IMG/VR virus record: IMGVR_UViG_3300022872_000001
Location: 124,001-188,000 of that record
Reading direction: 5' to 3' (one strand)
Length of the DNA: 64,000 nucleotides
Origin: a virus
The position numbers and the translations under genes were made by a program. The notes under the pieces were generated by a model. The model saw nothing but the letters and a program-made list of their open reading frames with translations, was not told the origin of the DNA and searched no databases. Shown here one piece after another: positions 34,214 to 54,955 of the stretch; within the stretch, counting starts at the first letter, position 1, and every line of letters starts with the position of its first letter.

Positions 34214-35040
34214 CTAAACTGAGTCCACCCAATCCGTATATTTGAACGTAATTGCCAGAGAAACGATGTTGGTACTCCCTCCGTCCATTGCGACCTCACC
34301 CATAGTCTGCGGATATAGACCAGACAGATTCACCGTACGGACTACCTCAGGTATATCATCATATACGACGATCTGGCCAGATACCTTGTATGCGGAAGAC
34401 AAGGTACCTGAATTATTACGCCATGACCGAATAGCTTCCATCCAGGCACCAAACTTCGCACGGGTACCCCAGTCATTTGTTTCCAGGAAACCCATTTGTA
34501 TGGAATGGGTATAAATCTTACGACCTGGGAACGGAACAGTTACACCATGCAAGGCTACGTCCAAATCCTCGAAGGCAGTACCTGGTAATTCAAGAGTCTG
34601 ACATTTGAAGGTCAGATCACGTGTATCACTAGAACCTGGAATAGCTGGCAGAAAAAGATCAAAATTCCCACTTATGTTCCGCATTAGTCGTTACACCAAT
34701 GCGCGCCTTTAGGCAGCTCTAGCTTTCACTAGAAGGTCAGACTATATCTTCACCCTGAGTAGCAGGGGCTTCCTATTTCCCGCCACTTGGCGGTACGGCT
34801 TGCGCCTAGTCGTTGAACCTTCCGCTGTTCGCGGCTTGGCTGCTGATTGCCCAATCCTAAAGTTTTTCAAACCTTCGCGCTCACCTATATTTCAAGGTCA
34901 CGCTGTGGTACTTATAGGCTCTAAGGGGTTTCCAGCAATTAAGGAAAATTTTACTGCATCATTACTAATGCAGGTCGCAGAATTTACGACTGTGCAGGAT
35001 CAGGTAAACTCTGAATATCAAAAATGCTAGATCGAGCCAT
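34214..35040 (-). CDS. Tail tube protein (T4 gp19-like), interrupted by a group I intron
   Basis: Exon 1 is 35040-34986 and exon 2 is 34668-34214. Spliced product is 169 residues, close to T4 gp19 (163). The junction reads DPAQSWNFDLFLPAIPG. Tube family features: LTFKCQTLELPGTAFED early, and LSGLYPQTMGEVAMDG near the end. Tube subunits stack inside the sheath and form the DNA channel. Exon 1 has its own AAAGGAG site. Without splicing, translation stops after 18 codons. The exon 2 frame also has an ATG at 34684, but that lies inside the intron. Confidence 0.85.
34669..34985 (-). mobile_element. Group I intron (317 bases, no open reading frame) in the tail tube gene
   Basis: The minus strand shows CAACGACTAGG and GAAGATATAGTCT, the paired P7 strands (GACTA at 34811-34807, TAGTC at 34744-34740). 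P1 pairs exon end CAGUCGU with internal guide GCGACCUG (34978-34971), with a U-G wobble exactly at the 5' splice site. P10 pairs loop AAAUUCU with the 3' exon start GGAAUUU. The intron ends in G (34669). Hairpins CTAGTGAAAGCTAG and GCATT...AATGC fit P9. No endonuclease is encoded inside, but one lies directly upstream. Confidence 0.9.
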
Positions 35041-35052
35041 ACTAGAACTCCT

Positions 35053-36282
35053 TTAATTAGTTAATATATTCTGAATAAAATTGTTCACACAGCCTCTAAT
35101 GCTACTGGGTTTTTCCAGATACCAATTAGAAGCTAGGAAGAGAAACGCATCTTGTTTCTTCCTTTTGATGTGAATAATCCAACGTACTTTGTTACCACTG
35201 TCGCAGGCAATTTGGGCCTTCCTTCTATTGGTTTTTAGATCGCCTTCACCACGCCCTCCTATGTCAGTTTTACCCCGTCCCATAAATGTCCAAGGGCTTT
35301 TGCATTCAATAAACGTATCTAAGGAATGTATATAGAAATCCGGAAATGTACGCATTTCGGAAAATGCGTAGTCTGGGAAATCTTCACTAAATTCCGTAGA
35401 TATATCTTTAGCCCCATATTTTGCTACCAGCCTTTTCAAGACTTCCATAGCAGACAAACCTTGAACTTTATACTTACGACCTTCTAGTGTAATCTCGTAT
35501 ATGTGCCGAGATTTACTCATTGCCTTGAGGAAGAATTTCGGAATCTGCATGGCGTAAGCTTCTCCATACACACGTTTCAAGGTCTCTTGGCCTTTAGCGC
35601 GTATGCTTGAATTACTTAGTAAATAATCAGTACCGTATTTCTTTCTATTTGTAGAGCGCACTTTAGACAAAATCTTTTCTTGCCAGTTATCTCCATATTT
35701 CCGTTGCAAGGTTACCCGTCGCTTTTCTATCGATGCAGGACGTTGCATACCATTAGTAATTCCTTCGCTAGCCATTAATTTGGCAGCACGTTTACCGCAG
35801 ATGTCCCGCTTAGGATCTTTCCACGCGATCTTATTTTTCTCGCTAATATGCGCTCTTTTGAGATCTGATACTTTCTTTGCATGGCTTATACCGCAATTAG
35901 AGCAGGTGCAAACTTTAGAATAAGCAAATTGCTCTTTACATATAACGCAAAATCTACTTTCGATGGCGGCTGAAACGTGGCGACTAAACCCACCAAGCAT
36001 ACGCGGGTTACTACCAAAGAAAACAAATTTTCTGTAAAGGATTTTATTATTATAAAGCTCGCGAAAGAATACTTCACTCAAACTTTTCATGTTGACATGC
36101 GAGGCAGACAGCTTACAGAAAAGTTTCTTTATATAAAGCGCGTCCGATTTATTCCATTCATTACGATTAAATCTACCGACTACTTTAGGTATAATTTCTA
36201 CTTTTTCAATTAACGATTTACCCACGCAAGCAGAGTGTAGCGTTATCCTACGACTTTTATTAATCCATTTATCTAACTTCAT
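35053..36282 (-). CDS. PD-(D/E)XK homing endonuclease inserted between two copies of tube exon 1
   Basis: 409 residues from the ATG at 36282 (GGAGATAAA upstream). Zinc-finger-like CVICKEQF...CTCSNC, then helical repeats (TLQRKYGDNWQEK, NRKKYGTDYLLSN, LKRVYGEAYAMQ), a KYKVQGLSAMEVLKRLVAKY module, and the nuclease motif TFPDFYIHSLDTFIECKS (D, E, K). The repeats probably read DNA sequence. Its closest relatives in the window are the genes at 32888 and 37148. It interrupts the tube gene after codon 20 of the upstream exon copy and probably targets the intron-free or element-free allele. Confidence 0.75.
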   Translation of the reverse strand: MKLDKWINKSRRITLHSACVGKSLIEKVEIIPKVVGRFNRNEWNKSDALYIKKLFCKLSASHVNMKSLSEVFFRELYNNKILYRKFVFFGSNPRMLGGFSRHVSAAIESRFCVICKEQFAYSKVCTCSNCGISHAKKVSDLKRAHISEKNKIAWKDPKRDICGKRAAKLMASEGITNGMQRPASIEKRRVTLQRKYGDNWQEKILSKVRSTNRKKYGTDYLLSNSSIRAKGQETLKRVYGEAYAMQIPKFFLKAMSKSRHIYEITLEGRKYKVQGLSAMEVLKRLVAKYGAKDISTEFSEDFPDYAFSEMRTFPDFYIHSLDTFIECKSPWTFMGRGKTDIGGRGEGDLKTNRRKAQIACDSGNKVRWIIHIKRKKQDAFLFLASNWYLEKPSSIRGCVNNFIQNILTN

Positions 36283-36386
36283 TTTATCTCCACACAGATT
36301 GGATGAGTTCGCGCTACTAGAAGCGGTGTGGCGCTTCGGGCTGGCCGGCCTTTTCATAGCTCGAACTCAAAAAAAGGTTTACAGGA

Positions 36387-48682: not shown

Positions 48683-51600
48683 TTACATCTCTTCGGAAAC
48701 GTCACGCAATTTTGTGCGACGCAATTTGTTGTACATCTTATTCAGATCTTTTTCATTGGATACCTGAATGCCAGCCTCCTTGATCTTATTGGCAATAGCT
48801 ATAAGCTTAGGCATGGTTAAACCAAAATACATAAGAACAGGTTCGCTCAATGCCCATTTAATTCCAGGAGCCTTCGCACGAATTGCCTTATTGGTGCCAG
48901 CTTGACCATGCGCAGGTAATACCAAGTAAGCATGACCATTTTCAAGCAACGGGTACGGCTTGATGATCTTAGGATCAGAGGAAGGTTTCTGTTCCACGCG
49001 GTAGAAGTTACGCAACTGACCTACCGAAGCAAACTTATAGATCAGATTAGGAGTTGATTTACCTTTCTGGAGCATGGTATGGACTGCACCAAAGGCTTCC
49101 TTCAATTCCTTCATCTTGGGGTCAGGCATAAAACCCTTTTCAGCCCATAGTTTCAATTGTTTTTCAAGACGCTGCGCATTGGTAATCGGTGCGTAGTAGA
49201 ACTGTTGAGCAATTGTGAAACCGAGGGATTGGAGAGCATTAGACGCTGCGGAATTCTTTTCATCAATGAAGTACGACAAACTTAGGAAACCATTGATTAC
49301 AGACAGAGCTAATTCCACGGACATTGCCTTTTCCAGATCCTTCTTCTGCTTTACCTTATCCTTCTTCAGCTTATCCAATTCCTGTTGTTTCTGGAGCCTT
49401 ACATTCTTGGCATCTTGAACCACAGCCACGGCAGGATGGTCAACTGGGGCATCTATCGGCAAATCACCTGTACCTTTAAGGATCTGGGTACGAATGTCAT
49501 TAGTCGAAGTGTCCTTACGTGTGATAAGGAAGGTAGAGGAAAATTTGACCCAAATAAAACCACTAGGTAAATCTACCTTAACAAAACGTGCCTTCATATC
49601 GAAAGCCCGAATAGTTCCTTCACCAAACTCCGTATGCACTACCTGACCAGATAGCTCCTCTTTTATACGCTTGAAGGATTCCTGTTCGGTAGCTTTTGCG
49701 TCCTCAGGTGATTGGTCTTCCTCTTCGTCACCTTCAAGAGCGTCTAACCGGAGATAATCATCCATGCGCACCAAACCTAATTGGTCTGTACCATATATTT
49801 CCAAACCAGGTGTATAAGGTACGGTATGCATTAGACGAGCATCCTTAGGAACAGGTGCAATCTCAACCGTTTCAATCTTTAGGTCACCGTGTATCTCACG
49901 ATATTCCTTATAGTCGTCATACAAACATTGGCGATATTCGGAGTAGGCATTACCGTAAATAGCTAAGGTAGAATTGCTATCCAAATCATCAGGATTACCC
50001 CAGTCATTATGTTCCTGAACTGTGTCCAGAGTCATCTTCATTACAGGGACATCTGGAATGGATTCATACGTCGTATTGTCTGCATTCTCGAACTTTGCAT
50101 TGGCAATCAACTTAGAGATCAAACGCGATATCTTGGTAATGTCAATGGTGCGATCGGCCATGACCCAGTCGAAATAAATCTTAGTACGACGAGATTCCTT
50201 CTTGAGTTCAGGACGATTGACACGGGAGTTACCTTGCTCCAATGTACCTGGATTCCAGACAGTTTCGCAATTGTGAACAAGTACGGGTGTTATAGGAACG
50301 TAACCACTTCTGCCTCCCTGATTGTGAGTAGTTACCGCAAAGTAATTATGGTTACCCTCTACCTCAAGATCATATCTATACTTACCAATGGTGTTAACGT
50401 TCCTGTTACGCTGAACGTGTATAACCTTTAGATAGTGATTGTTAATAAAGGATTCTAACCTTGCCTTACCTTTACGTACTGTATCGTTGCTTGCTTCTAA
50501 GGCAGCCTTTTTCCTATTAGCCATTACCTGCTTAGATTTATTGGACAGTATCCCGTGCGATTCATAAAGATGATTGTGTTTAGTATTGGGATGATCTATA
50601 AAATCGCATTTAGGGCATGACCAATCCCCTACACTATCATAAGGAATCACTTCAGAATTTACATCTACCTTGAACCGAGTAAAATCTCCACCGTAGGTTA
50701 TTAATTTTTGACCTTTCTTTAAATTCGCAGCCAATACTTCCTCACCACCCTTAAGAATAAAAGGATGGACTGACGTGCTTACTATGGAAGATCTTTGGCC
50801 GGTTATGCTATCCTCAACAGTGACGCTTACGTACTCATCATCAGGCTGAACAGGAGTTTTCCAACGAGTCAGAATCCTACGTTTTTCAATCCTCTTATTT
50901 TCTAAATCGTAAGATAGTACGTATTTAATATCTGGATTATCTACAATCTCCTTAATGGTAAGGGATTTATCGTAATCAATAAGAACTGGGGTTTGACCTG
51001 GGAAGCATCTAACCAACCGTGAAGCATGTTGCAAATTCAAACCAGTATTCATGGATTGCTCAACACCAATCATGATCTGCTTGGATTCATCATGTTCAAA
51101 TGCAGCGCCTGCCTCAATCTTATCAGCCGCAACATAAAGAATTGCTTTAGCTTTTAAATCATTAGGCAATAGATTATAGATCTCTTCGGCGGAGGCAGTG
51201 TAATTAGTAAATACCAAAACTTTACCAGGTATTTGCTGCTCTATATGCTCTCGAATGAGCTCATGAATCTTGTGTACCTTAGGACTTATACGATCTTCGC
51301 CCTTAAGAACTTTATCCCCTAATTCATCACTAGTAGGAGCAGTAATGAATTGTTCCAACCGAGCAAGGTAAGGACCTAAGATACCTGCCAAGTCTTCATC
51401 TGCATCCTCGTCATCTGCGCTTTCATCACCAGGATCTTCCTCCCCTTCACCCTTTGGTTCAACCTTGGATTTACCTCCATTAATGAATTCAGCCAAACGC
51501 GGAGAGGTCTTGGCCGCTTCTTTAATGGCTTCAATGGTGCGCTCAAAGAGAAGATTATAGATTTCTCGTTGTGCTTCCGTCAGGTCAACCCGATGGAATT

Positions 51601-54600
51601 TCTCAATTGCTTGCGGCAATAACGCTGCCCATTCCTTACGCATGGCTCCTGCAACTACTACCCGGGTCTTGATGATTTCCGAGATTTGTTGCTGTGCACC
51701 TGGTTTCCATTTCAGTACACGATTACCACTTACCTTTTCACCAAAGCGCTCATTAAAGGCGTCCCGGGATCCAAAGAGAGTAGGATCTAGCATAGCAATC
51801 TGCAAAGCCAGGTCAGATGGCGAATCGTGAGCCATAGTACCAGACGCCAAGCGTTTCTTAGGAATATCTGCAATTAAAGCCATACAAGCCTTAGTACGGG
51901 CTGAATCATTTTTTACAGAATTGTGAACTAAACCTCCATTTACAGAGAATGACGGATGTCCGTCAATCTGGAGGTTATAAACTTTCGCACTTCCTTCGGA
52001 CGATTGATAACTGCTTTGTTCGATACGCTTAACACTGTCCACCCTAAGGAATTTAGAAGTTTCTTCTTTTTTACATCTAAATGCCGTCGAGTTGACATAT
52101 AGTGGGATGAGCCGTTCACTTCCAAGGCTAACCTTAGTTTCGGCCACGCAAAGTCCACTTTGTAGCAAGGAGGATACCCGGAGTCCCTTGGCTGTTTCGT
52201 AGGTATGGCCAGCTGAAATGTCGCTTTCGGAAACATGTTCATCACTAACTGTTCGCAAGGACTTATCGTCCCGTTGCCTCCTCGTTTCACAAATCCGTGA
52301 CCTATTGCTAACAACGTCGAAGATACTTTCGCACGAGTCTTGGGATCCTTCATAGGATTGTTTACCTTCATATACTGAGAGTTCCGAGCTCGACCTTCCT
52401 TGTAAATCTCTGGATTTTTCTTCTCTTTCTTCTTCTTGGTTTCCATACCCTTCGCATAATTCTCCGAGGTGTGAATCTTTGCTAGAATTTTTGGCTGAGA
52501 CATCCTCCATTTCGCTGAGCAAGATGTCCCGCAGAACCTTTGATTCTTCGTTTTTAAATTCTTTTGAACAAATTCCTGTCGGCAATACTTGCACTTCATT
52601 TAATAACTCCTCAGCATAAATCTGACATACGATCTCATCACCTACAACCAGATCCTTAGCAAATATCCATCCGCGTTTGGTAAAGAAAGGGTGTTTAGTA
52701 GTAGCAGATATAATCTTACCATTATATGCCACTTCAATAATATCCGTATTTAAGGGGAGTGCATGCGTTGCCTGCACCTTAGAAATACCTATAGCCGAAT
52801 ATATGGAATCCCCGACGTTGATATCCTCGATCTTACGAATTCCTGAGGGAGTGTCGACCTCTGTACCTGCTAAAAAACAATGACTCTCATCGAGCATCGA
52901 ATAGCCGAATTTGAATTGACGTAAAAATTCAATAATCGGATAAACGTTTACATTGGTAGTACCATAACATACCTGTTGTTGCCTGTAACGCAGAACATCA
53001 TAATCAGCAATAACAACGGTGTTACGAGGAGCTGACTGCAAGATTTTACCCAAACGCTCTAAACCATTCTTACGAACGGTATAGGTATTGATAGGAATGG
53101 CATTCAACTTACCATCGGTGAAGAATACGATTTCCTTAACGTACTGTGCAACCAGATGCGGAGGACACAGGATCAGGTAAGGTTCTGAGCGGTTGGCTTT
53201 AATCTCGTATAGGATATCGGTAATGGTTAATACCGATTTACCCCCACCTGCTTGAACAGGAAGAATTGCGAAGTCTGGCGAATCTTTCAATAGGTTACGC
53301 ACCTTCTTTTGGTGCGGTAACATAATGTTCTCTTTGCGGAACAATGGAATAGATGGAATTTCCCAAGCGGCATCTACGGCTTGATTAATGGCTGCCTTAC
53401 GAATTGTCTCATCCACAGCTTGGGTCTCTGGAAACTTAGGACCATACTTAGCAATGATCGTTAACCATGCCAAGTTAGAGGCAACGTGGGAAACCGAATA
53501 CCTGGCATACACAGAATCCAACTGCGCGATAATCGCAGCTTGGGCATTTACACACCAGCGGGACAGACACTGAAAAGCAGGATATTCCGAGTGCGGAGTA
53601 ATATGGGTAAGATTCAGGATCGGATCCTCATCCATACGATCAATTACAGCTTTAACTGTGGCGAGATATTCGGTGAGACCATGAGTAGACGCTTTGATAC
53701 TCTCGTAGGCTACCGGATCGAAAGCTTTAATAGCCTGGAGTTCGGCTTCGGTAGGTTCAACCGATTTACCAATACCTGCTGTTTCTGCCATCGGCAGGAA
53801 ACGAGTAAACAGGGCAACAATATCCGTGTCACGCTTCATCATATTGATGATGTGAGGAGCCTGTGCTTTCTTGTACCTCACCAAGTCCAGTACCTTTAGC
53901 ATACCTGTGGTCTGGGTGAATGCATACTTATTATTCACCCAATCGATCAGTACTGGCACGTTACGCGGTAAATGAGTTTCTTTGCTCAGAGTCTCCATGG
54001 TGCCCGTAGGATCCAAACGATGCAAGGCAAAGGAGTCATCGCCCTCGTATGAACCTGCTAAGCTAAACAGGTTCTCGTACTTACTGGTATTATCCAGTTT
54101 GTAGGGTAAATAAATAGGCATACCTGCAGGATCTATGGATAGGCCATACTCGTCTACCCGTGCGTCTTCCGACTCTACGGGAGGCAAGGTACGTGCAATC
54201 TTAGAGATTGGAAACGAAGACAGAGGATTGGAACCTTGTTGACCAAAACCAGAAGTAGTCCACTGTAACATTAACGGATAGAGATCGATATTACGGATTT
54301 CCATCCAGTTAGTTGTGGTAAGCTGCTCTGCTTCTGCTTTGGTAATCTTAAAGGTAGCGAAGAAGACACCTCTATTAGCAGAGTGTTCAAAGGTGACGCT
54401 AACAAGGCAACTTTGGAGCGCAGCCAAACCTGCCGCATTCACATTACCCATTGAAGCTATTACCTTCTCCTTGGTGTAATGTACAGCACCTAAGGTATCA
54501 GGTGTTGACGGATTCTGAACGGTCTTTTCCATCAGATTATCAATTCCGAATTTATCCTGATCAGGATTATCTTCAGACAGAACTCCTCGCGCCAACATTG

Positions 54601-54955
54601 CGGCAAGATTTTCTAAACCACCTGCGATGTTGTCGCTATTAACACTCCATAGTGGAACGGATACGGTAAAGTGCGGATCAGCGGCATCATTGATTTTCTG
54701 AAGACGGGTCAAGCCGGCAGGAGTTTTCTTATGGAAAACTTCCATCACCTTACGGATATCGCGCGCGTCAGTTCCGTATTTATCGGATTTAACAACCTCT
54801 GGAAATACGGAACCTAACCAAAACCGCTGCATAAACGCCATAGGTTTTTCACGGAAACCGCGGTTGTAGACATAAAGGAAATTCTTCTTTAACTCTATAC
54901 GAGGTAACTGAAGAGTTGCAGGCGCAACCAAGTTGGTAGTGACACGTAAAGTCAT
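48683..54955 (-). CDS. Large superfamily 2 (SNF2-like) helicase containing two inteins
   Basis: 2090 residues before splicing, 1524 after. Helicase motifs: Walker A PVQAGGGKS (ending 574), PYLILCPPHL, Walker B LDESH (688-692), TNYTASAEEIYN, and GLNLQHASRLVR joined to CETVWNPGTLEQGNSRVNR after splicing (motifs V/VI). The first 500 and last 450 residues have no recognised fold; the tail includes a coiled coil (KQQELDKLKKDKVKQKKDL). Inteins occupy residues 693-1012 and 1317-1562. Embedded among virion genes, it may be packaged or act in late transcription or packaging; this is not shown. Confidence 0.82.
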   Translation of the reverse strand: MTLRVTTNLVAPATLQLPRIELKKNFLYVYNRGFREKPMAFMQRFWLGSVFPEVVKSDKYGTDARDIRKVMEVFHKKTPAGLTRLQKINDAADPHFTVSVPLWSVNSDNIAGGLENLAAMLARGVLSEDNPDQDKFGIDNLMEKTVQNPSTPDTLGAVHYTKEKVIASMGNVNAAGLAALQSCLVSVTFEHSANRGVFFATFKITKAEAEQLTTTNWMEIRNIDLYPLMLQWTTSGFGQQGSNPLSSFPISKIARTLPPVESEDARVDEYGLSIDPAGMPIYLPYKLDNTSKYENLFSLAGSYEGDDSFALHRLDPTGTMETLSKETHLPRNVPVLIDWVNNKYAFTQTTGMLKVLDLVRYKKAQAPHIINMMKRDTDIVALFTRFLPMAETAGIGKSVEPTEAELQAIKAFDPVAYESIKASTHGLTEYLATVKAVIDRMDEDPILNLTHITPHSEYPAFQCLSRWCVNAQAAIIAQLDSVYARYSVSHVASNLAWLTIIAKYGPKFPETQAVDETIRKAAINQAVDAAWEIPSIPLFRKENIMLPHQKKVRNLLKDSPDFAILPVQAGGGKSVLTITDILYEIKANRSEPYLILCPPHLVAQYVKEIVFFTDGKLNAIPINTYTVRKNGLERLGKILQSAPRNTVVIADYDVLRYRQQQVCYGTTNVNVYPIIEFLRQFKFGYSMLDESHCFLAGTEVDTPSGIRKIEDINVGDSIYSAIGISKVQATHALPLNTDIIEVAYNGKIISATTKHPFFTKRGWIFAKDLVVGDEIVCQIYAEELLNEVQVLPTGICSKEFKNEESKVLRDILLSEMEDVSAKNSSKDSHLGELCEGYGNQEEEREEKSRDLQGRSSSELSVYEGKQSYEGSQDSCESIFDVVSNRSRICETRRQRDDKSLRTVSDEHVSESDISAGHTYETAKGLRVSSLLQSGLCVAETKVSLGSERLIPLYVNSTAFRCKKEETSKFLRVDSVKRIEQSSYQSSEGSAKVYNLQIDGHPSFSVNGGLVHNSVKNDSARTKACMALIADIPKKRLASGTMAHDSPSDLALQIAMLDPTLFGSRDAFNERFGEKVSGNRVLKWKPGAQQQISEIIKTRVVVAGAMRKEWAALLPQAIEKFHRVDLTEAQREIYNLLFERTIEAIKEAAKTSPRLAEFINGGKSKVEPKGEGEEDPGDESADDEDADEDLAGILGPYLARLEQFITAPTSDELGDKVLKGEDRISPKVHKIHELIREHIEQQIPGKVLVFTNYTASAEEIYNLLPNDLKAKAILYVAADKIEAGAAFEHDESKQIMIGVEQSMNTGLNLQHASRLVRCFPGQTPVLIDYDKSLTIKEIVDNPDIKYVLSYDLENKRIEKRRILTRWKTPVQPDDEYVSVTVEDSITGQRSSIVSTSVHPFILKGGEEVLAANLKKGQKLITYGGDFTRFKVDVNSEVIPYDSVGDWSCPKCDFIDHPNTKHNHLYESHGILSNKSKQVMANRKKAALEASNDTVRKGKARLESFINNHYLKVIHVQRNRNVNTIGKYRYDLEVEGNHNYFAVTTHNQGGRSGYVPITPVLVHNCETVWNPGTLEQGNSRVNRPELKKESRRTKIYFDWVMADRTIDITKISRLISKLIANAKFENADNTTYESIPDVPVMKMTLDTVQEHNDWGNPDDLDSNSTLAIYGNAYSEYRQCLYDDYKEYREIHGDLKIETVEIAPVPKDARLMHTVPYTPGLEIYGTDQLGLVRMDDYLRLDALEGDEEEDQSPEDAKATEQESFKRIKEELSGQVVHTEFGEGTIRAFDMKARFVKVDLPSGFIWVKFSSTFLITRKDTSTNDIRTQILKGTGDLPIDAPVDHPAVAVVQDAKNVRLQKQQELDKLKKDKVKQKKDLEKAMSVELALSVINGFLSLSYFIDEKNSAASNALQSLGFTIAQQFYYAPITNAQRLEKQLKLWAEKGFMPDPKMKELKEAFGAVHTMLQKGKSTPNLIYKFASVGQLRNFYRVEQKPSSDPKIIKPYPLLENGHAYLVLPAHGQAGTNKAIRAKAPGIKWALSEPVLMYFGLTMPKLIAIANKIKEAGIQVSNEKDLNKMYNKLRRTKLRDVSEEM
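50270..51007 (-). mobile_element. Intein 2 in the large helicase (246 residues)
   Basis: Block A CFPGQTPVLIDYDKSL, block B STSVHPFILKGGEEV, block F YRYDLEVEGNHNYFAV, and end PITPVLVHN followed by Cys. It sits in the conserved motif V/VI region (ASRLVR / CETVWN). The middle has no LAGLIDADG or full HNH, but has a zinc-finger-like CPKCDFIDHPNTKHNHLYE, perhaps a remnant DNA-binding part. Likely a mini-intein that splices but no longer homes. Confidence 0.88.
51920..52879 (-). mobile_element. Intein 1 in the large helicase (320 residues) with an overprinted endonuclease gene
   Basis: Block A CFLAGTEVDTPSGI right after the Walker B DESH, block B ATTKHPFFTKRGW, block F KVYNLQIDGHPSFSVNG and end GGLVHN followed by Ser. 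About 220 residues between blocks B and F are Ser/Glu/Arg-rich and look unfolded. This stretch is the alternative-frame reading of a complete endonuclease gene at 51940-52599. Confidence 0.9.
51940..52599 (-). CDS. Homing endonuclease encoded in another frame inside intein 1
   Basis: 219 residues, same strand as the helicase but a different frame. It begins MKCKYCRQEF...FCGTSCSAKW (zinc finger), has repeats-like KVNNPMKDPKTRAKV, and a Vsr/DUF559-like nuclease core YKVDFAWPKLRLALEVNGSS followed by LNSLGWTVLSVSNKAVI. GAGGAG lies 8 bases before the ATG and is read as Glu-Glu by the intein frame. It is complete, has its own ribosome site, and lies entirely within the intein. It presumably cuts intein-free helicase alleles. 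Confidence 0.82.
   Translation of the reverse strand: MKCKYCRQEFVQKNLKTKNQRFCGTSCSAKWRMSQPKILAKIHTSENYAKGMETKKKKEKKNPEIYKEGRARNSQYMKVNNPMKDPKTRAKVSSTLLAIGHGFVKRGGNGTISPCEQLVMNMFPKATFQLAIPTKQPRDSGYPPCYKVDFAWPKLRLALEVNGSSHYMSTRRHLDVKKKKLLNSLGWTVLSVSNKAVINRPKEVRKFITSRLTDIRHSL

Follow-up and report, generated by a model that had tools for sequence, protein, structure and literature searches.

A putative homing endonuclease overprinted out of frame within a phage helicase intein, and a family of Walker B inteins with the same layout

Based on our analysis of a 64,000-nucleotide stretch of a 192-kb virus record (the window), we consider it very likely that a phage DNA helicase gene carries a mobile intein with its homing endonuclease in another reading frame (Table 1). 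The helicase ORF is of the SNF2/SF2 type (Pfam SNF2-rel_dom, 4.4e-12; PHROG DNA helicase, 9e-99) and hosts two inteins. The first, intein 1, contains on the same strand, in its +1 frame, a second ORF for a DUF559-type nuclease, and we infer internal initiation, splicing, cleavage and homing of the element.

Table 1. Features of the intein 1 locus and neighbouring elements, in window coordinates.
Feature	Position	Strand	Remarks
Phage SNF2/SF2-type DNA helicase ORF	48683..54955	-	2090 aa; host of two inteins
Intein 1	51920..52879	-	320 aa; helicase aa 693-1012; after DESH of Walker B
N-terminal splicing half, HINT strands, blocks A and B	52610..52879	-	intein aa 1-90
Intein-frame linker	52064..52606	-	intein aa 92-272; disordered, pLDDT mostly <60
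Putative overprinted homing endonuclease ORF	51940..52599	-	219 codons; +1 frame of intein 1
GAGGAG Shine-Dalgarno-like site	52607..52612	-	inside intein codons; 7 nt before nuclease ATG
TAA in nuclease frame	52600..52602	-	directly before ATG; no read-in from upstream in this frame
Zone where two structured segments share DNA	51941..52057	-	nuclease aa 182-219 and intein strands aa 275-313
Nuclease codon 162, AAC (Asn)	52114..52116	-	Asp in 129/129 overprinted and 12/12 intein-less relatives
Intein 2	50270..51007	-	246 aa
Group I intron RF00028	34717-35030	-	74 bits, full model; between ORFs 34214..34684 and 35053..36357

The splicing motifs of intein 1 are intact, as the original prediction stated: Cys1, TxxH (T60..H63), His319-Asn320 and Ser as the +1 residue. 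Both HINT halves are confident in the AlphaFold2 model (mostly >95), the N-terminal half reaching a pLDDT of 96-98 over aa 1-80 with lower values in aa 81-90, and the structure matches the MchDnaB-1, gp41-1 and RecA inteins. In an intein-free helicase homologue, that of Burkholderia phage BcepSauron (74% identity over the junction), the empty site reads FRFCYAGLDESH/RVKNDT, with LDESH/RVKND uninterrupted; intein 1 is an in-frame insertion at a conserved site and is absent from this homologue. Its host gene is one continuous ORF and not the divided host of a fractured-gene split intein. A group I intron in place of intein 1 was ruled out, Rfam giving no match at the locus; the group I intron listed in Table 1 lies elsewhere in the window. 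Intein 2 of the same helicase carries in frame an insert rich in Cys and His (WSCPKCDF...HNHLYESH) that resembles a zinc finger and may be left over from a DNA-binding part, and, in contrast to intein 1, its coding strand carries no overprinted ORF of at least 60 codons.

The overprinted ORF begins at nt 281 of intein 1, and its stop lies 20 nt short of the end of the intein. The original prediction had placed a complete endonuclease gene in the middle of the intein; the middle is indeed covered, but the ORF extends further, over most of the C-terminal splicing half. Its predicted composition and independent signals (GAGGAG and stop) agree with what we find: an N-terminal CxxC...C...C zinc-finger-like part, a helical middle and a DUF559/EDxHD nuclease domain, with a Pfam DUF559 (PF04480) match of E=6.7e-9 (36 bits, cut-off 20.6). 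AlphaFold models the protein with a pLDDT of 94.4 from an alignment with 73 relatives, rows from phage-collection records having been left out of the alignments used for modelling. The best PDB fold match of the nuclease domain is the catalytic domain of I-Bth0305I (3r3p; TM 0.70 normalised by target; HMM match to the chain, E about 5e-4), one of the EDxHD (Vsr-like) homing endonucleases. I-Bth0305I, which the PDB names ‘Mobile intron protein’, is a group I intron enzyme; the overprinted nuclease differs from it in its added zinc-finger and helical part. Where the end of the nuclease and the intein strands share DNA, both frames are modelled with confidence (pLDDT 95-98 for the nuclease and 74-96 for the intein). 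Searched as a single sequence against viral contigs, the window nuclease returned no relative, so that profiles were needed, and plasmid searches gave nothing with this nuclease and only weak, DUF559-type matches with a relative.

One residue casts doubt on the activity of the window copy. D149, E160, H166 and D175 are invariant or nearly so across the family, and the window nuclease has four of the five residues D149, E160, D162, H166 and D175; at position 162 it has Asn, against Asp in all 141 relatives. The analogy of Vsr makes it probable that this Asp is catalytic, and the window nuclease with Asn162 may therefore be inactive. The ORF is complete, as had been claimed of the gene, but judged from this substitution its product may no longer cut, and its activity is doubtful. 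The solved I-Bth0305I chain 3r3p likewise aligns Asn at position 162, possibly because it is an engineered form.

The layout is not confined to the window. In 50,697 phage records tblastn found 40 matches, each lying under one annotated gene, mostly ‘helicase’, and in all 8 distinct loci whose frames were checked the nuclease lay in the +1 frame inside an intein; in every annotated record examined, the host gene alone was listed under the nuclease match. Context-blind profile searches of IMG/VR and GTDB contigs added about 250 loci, many being the same contig repeated, and loci were classified by HMMs of the intein halves and the nuclease. Among the non-redundant loci, 129 have both halves in one open ORF and the nuclease in +1, no intein-borne relative has it in frame or in +2, and one partial locus agrees with the same layout. 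Both halves lie in one continuous ORF in 129/130 non-redundant loci that have them. One locus, L160 (2489-4630), is a clamp-loader intein with a single TAG in the intein frame and an intact overprinted nuclease; this TAG may mark a stage on the way to a split intein or come from an error in sequencing. The family ranges over phages of Vibrio, Pseudomonas and Corynebacterium and contigs of many phyla. Its nucleases are only about 30-40% identical while frame (+1) and place are uniform, and since so ancient and uniform a layout spans such divergence, it is, as far as the compared sequences tell, an old, stable and dedicated architecture.

The hosts are SF2 helicases, SNF2 ATPases, DNA polymerase III clamp-loader ATPases and others without Pfam assignment. 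Insertion is directly after the ‘DE’ of Walker B of P-loop ATPases in 114/129 inteins and 2-3 residues downstream of it in a further 11, the window intein among these. Three alleles of nearly one helicase occur in Vibrio phages: empty in 234P10, overprinted in K391, and with a mini-intein of 150 aa at the same site in K389, K459 and PS65A.1. The flanks of 234P10 and K391 are about 94% identical and the difference is exactly the intein; those of VchM-138 and CP-T1 are 96-97% identical and differ by exactly the element. These alleles indicate, at the level of sequence comparison, that the element is probably mobile. The divergence of the nuclease correlates only moderately with that of the intein halves (Mantel r 0.59, partial 0.35), so the two are not strictly inherited together as a unit. 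Divergence is correlated, though imperfectly in each case, among nuclease, splicing halves and exteins.

The original prediction also suggested that a free-standing endonuclease had invaded a mini-intein. The Vibrio mini-inteins fit such an origin, as does one relative closer than the distant DUF559 genes (L268/L269), which is free-standing beside another large ORF: at L268 (3393-4076) it overlaps the start of a 600-codon ORF, without a Pfam match, that resembles a terminase or other P-loop ATPase, and no intein was found there. The mini-inteins may, however, be deletion products, and the direction is unproven. A recent landing of the endonuclease gene at the window locus itself we hold to be unlikely, as the uniform frame and position across so divergent a set of nucleases, in diverse phages and phyla, point to one old event.

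The overprinted nuclease is likely translated by internal initiation, to judge from its upstream sequence. A Shine-Dalgarno match of at least 4 nt precedes the best start in 81% of 78 members, against 54% in a matched control (max 72% in 2000 draws), and one of at least 5 nt in 56% against 21%; the score takes the best of several starts, and the control is matched for the number of candidates. In several lineages conserved codons of the intein, close to where block B ends, make up the site, either GACGAGGTT (D-E-V) or AAAGGAGAT (K-G-D), and the family median for the nuclease stop is 20 nt before the intein end, within the last intein codons. The constancy of the +1 frame would also suit programmed frameshifting from the helicase frame into an intein-nuclease fusion, but the enrichment of a Shine-Dalgarno site plus ATG at the start and, in the window, the closure of the nuclease frame by a stop before the ATG make this explanation very unlikely.

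For a mobile intein with an out-of-frame endonuclease we propose the following scheme. Ribosomes translating the helicase would read straight through the whole element; the two HINT halves would fold together with the linker of about 180 residues as a floppy loop, and the element would be spliced out. Other ribosomes would start inside the intein, at the Shine-Dalgarno site and ATG just past block B, and end at the stop within the last intein codons, yielding a free nuclease. In alleles that lack the intein, this nuclease would cleave the sequence encoding Walker B, and repair would copy the whole element in.

The comparison of synonymous constraint in the two frames bears on which of them is maintained as a protein. 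In the window, the intein frame has no stops over the 219 codons against 10.4 expected, a value never reached in 400 synonymous shuffles, whereas the third frame under the same shuffling has 23 against 19.8. Because the window nuclease has no close relative, selective constraint was measured on other members of the family. In 78 non-redundant members the intein frame has 0 stops against 619 expected, and the third frame 1129 against 1024. Of 136 substitutions in close pairs, 99 fall at nuclease position 3, which is intein position 1, and 15 at nuclease position 2, which is intein position 3; these sums leave out one of three dependent comparisons. In distant pairs the nuclease is more conserved than the linker in 4627/4627 (amino acid identity 0.40 against 0.21). 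The concentration at wobble positions and the higher identity of the nuclease imply that constraint at the protein level acts on the nuclease, while the intein frame must stay open, as had been supposed. The invariant ‘LQ’ of the linker is a shadow of the nuclease Tyr-Lys codons TAC AAA, in which TAT would create a stop. Linker composition is slightly more hydrophilic than in shuffles (mean z -1.3), a shift confounded with stop avoidance, and we make no claim of selection on it. With the nuclease frame conserved in 129 loci and the linker disordered, our results support the suggestion that the linker is a by-product of the nuclease sequence, without a conserved fold; on both points they are the opposite of what the original prediction named as refuting it.

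The same data weigh against a canonical endonuclease in decay, in which a frameshift put an in-frame nuclease out of frame and left it as a relic. Decay of intein endonucleases is known, and Asn162 of the window copy would suit it; for the family, however, it is already contradicted by the lack of in-frame members, by a +1 nuclease that is a conserved, folded frame with signals of its own, by the wobble-position substitutions and by the lack of any broken nuclease among 250 overprinted loci, and we regard it as highly improbable. One apparently broken nuclease (L041) proved intact when its frames were read, the break having come from a joined tblastn match. That the ORF is a chance one with a spurious DUF559 match has practically nothing to recommend it beyond the commonness of overlapping ORFs in ORF lists, and is refuted by the confident fold, the invariant catalytic residues and an open-frame probability below 1/400 at the window locus and, for all family members together, a combined log10 P of about -196, in which no single term was allowed to fall below 1/400.

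Among known systems, canonical inteins such as the ET08 portal intein (L119) share the HINT halves, an endonuclease between blocks B and F, and mobility; in the overprinted inteins, by contrast, the endonuclease lies out of frame and outside the intein polypeptide, and the linker is meaningless sequence. Fractured genes, reportedly described by Dassa in 2009, are interrupted by a split intein whose halves flank a free endonuclease gene. Like the overprinted inteins they have a separately translated endonuclease within the intein, partly at the same DE|C site, but the overprinted host gene is unsplit and two genes overlap in two frames; L160 could be an intermediate between the two. In Salmonella phage CF-SP2 (L120, 2311-5040), UvsW is fractured at this DE|C site, with a 291-aa NUMOD3/TnsA-like ORF between the halves. 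This ORF was rejected as a close relative of the overprinted nucleases, as its zinc-finger part alone aligns, and weakly.

The closest precedent is the ShiLan domain, an out-of-frame HNH endonuclease insertion that keeps the host frame open without an intein (PMC11855218). It shares the mobile endonuclease in another frame of an insertion, the open host frame and presence/absence among phages, but it has no splicing domain, an HNH in place of a DUF559 nuclease, a methylase host and no detectable ribosome-binding site, whereas the intein 1 family consists of true inteins with a complete splicing domain, Walker B hosts and a Shine-Dalgarno site. For overlapping reading frames in actinobacteriophages the same article cites Gosselin 2025 (bioRxiv, ‘Actinobacteriophage Inteins: ... 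Non-Canonical Architecture’) and Gorbalenya 1998 (‘Non-canonical inteins’), which, going by these citations, may describe the same principle. Apart from these two, the literature searched contains no report of an intein overprinted with an endonuclease. We rate out-of-frame endonucleases that keep the host frame open as already published, and a large uniform family of them in Walker B inteins as probably new.

We find it rather probable that the overprinted inteins represent a third mobile-intein architecture beside the in-frame and fractured ones: a widespread lineage in Walker B of P-loop ATPases, with obligate +1 overprinting, that gene callers have missed because they annotate the long host ORF only. 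In this architecture the ribosome site would lie in block B codons and the stop in the last intein codons, and the C-terminal helix of the nuclease would share its DNA with intein strands. The overprinted family offers a clear and testable case, and a widespread one, in which protein splicing and DNA cutting, both selfish functions and unrelated to each other, are held by one DNA in two frames. It is a natural example of gene entanglement and offers a natural path linking in-frame inteins with free endonucleases and fractured genes. A hidden endonuclease may, we suggest, also be present in many of the ‘mini-inteins with long linkers’ that annotations call inactive. Of additional note, one helicase of Vibrio phage PS65A.1 (L118, 1546-4677) has an in-frame LAGLIDADG-like intein at Walker A together with its mini-intein at Walker B, and in Klebsiella phage KP13-7 (L122, 2515-6214) successive intein halves break up ribonucleotide reductase, and between these halves lie a GIY-YIG ORF and one further ORF.
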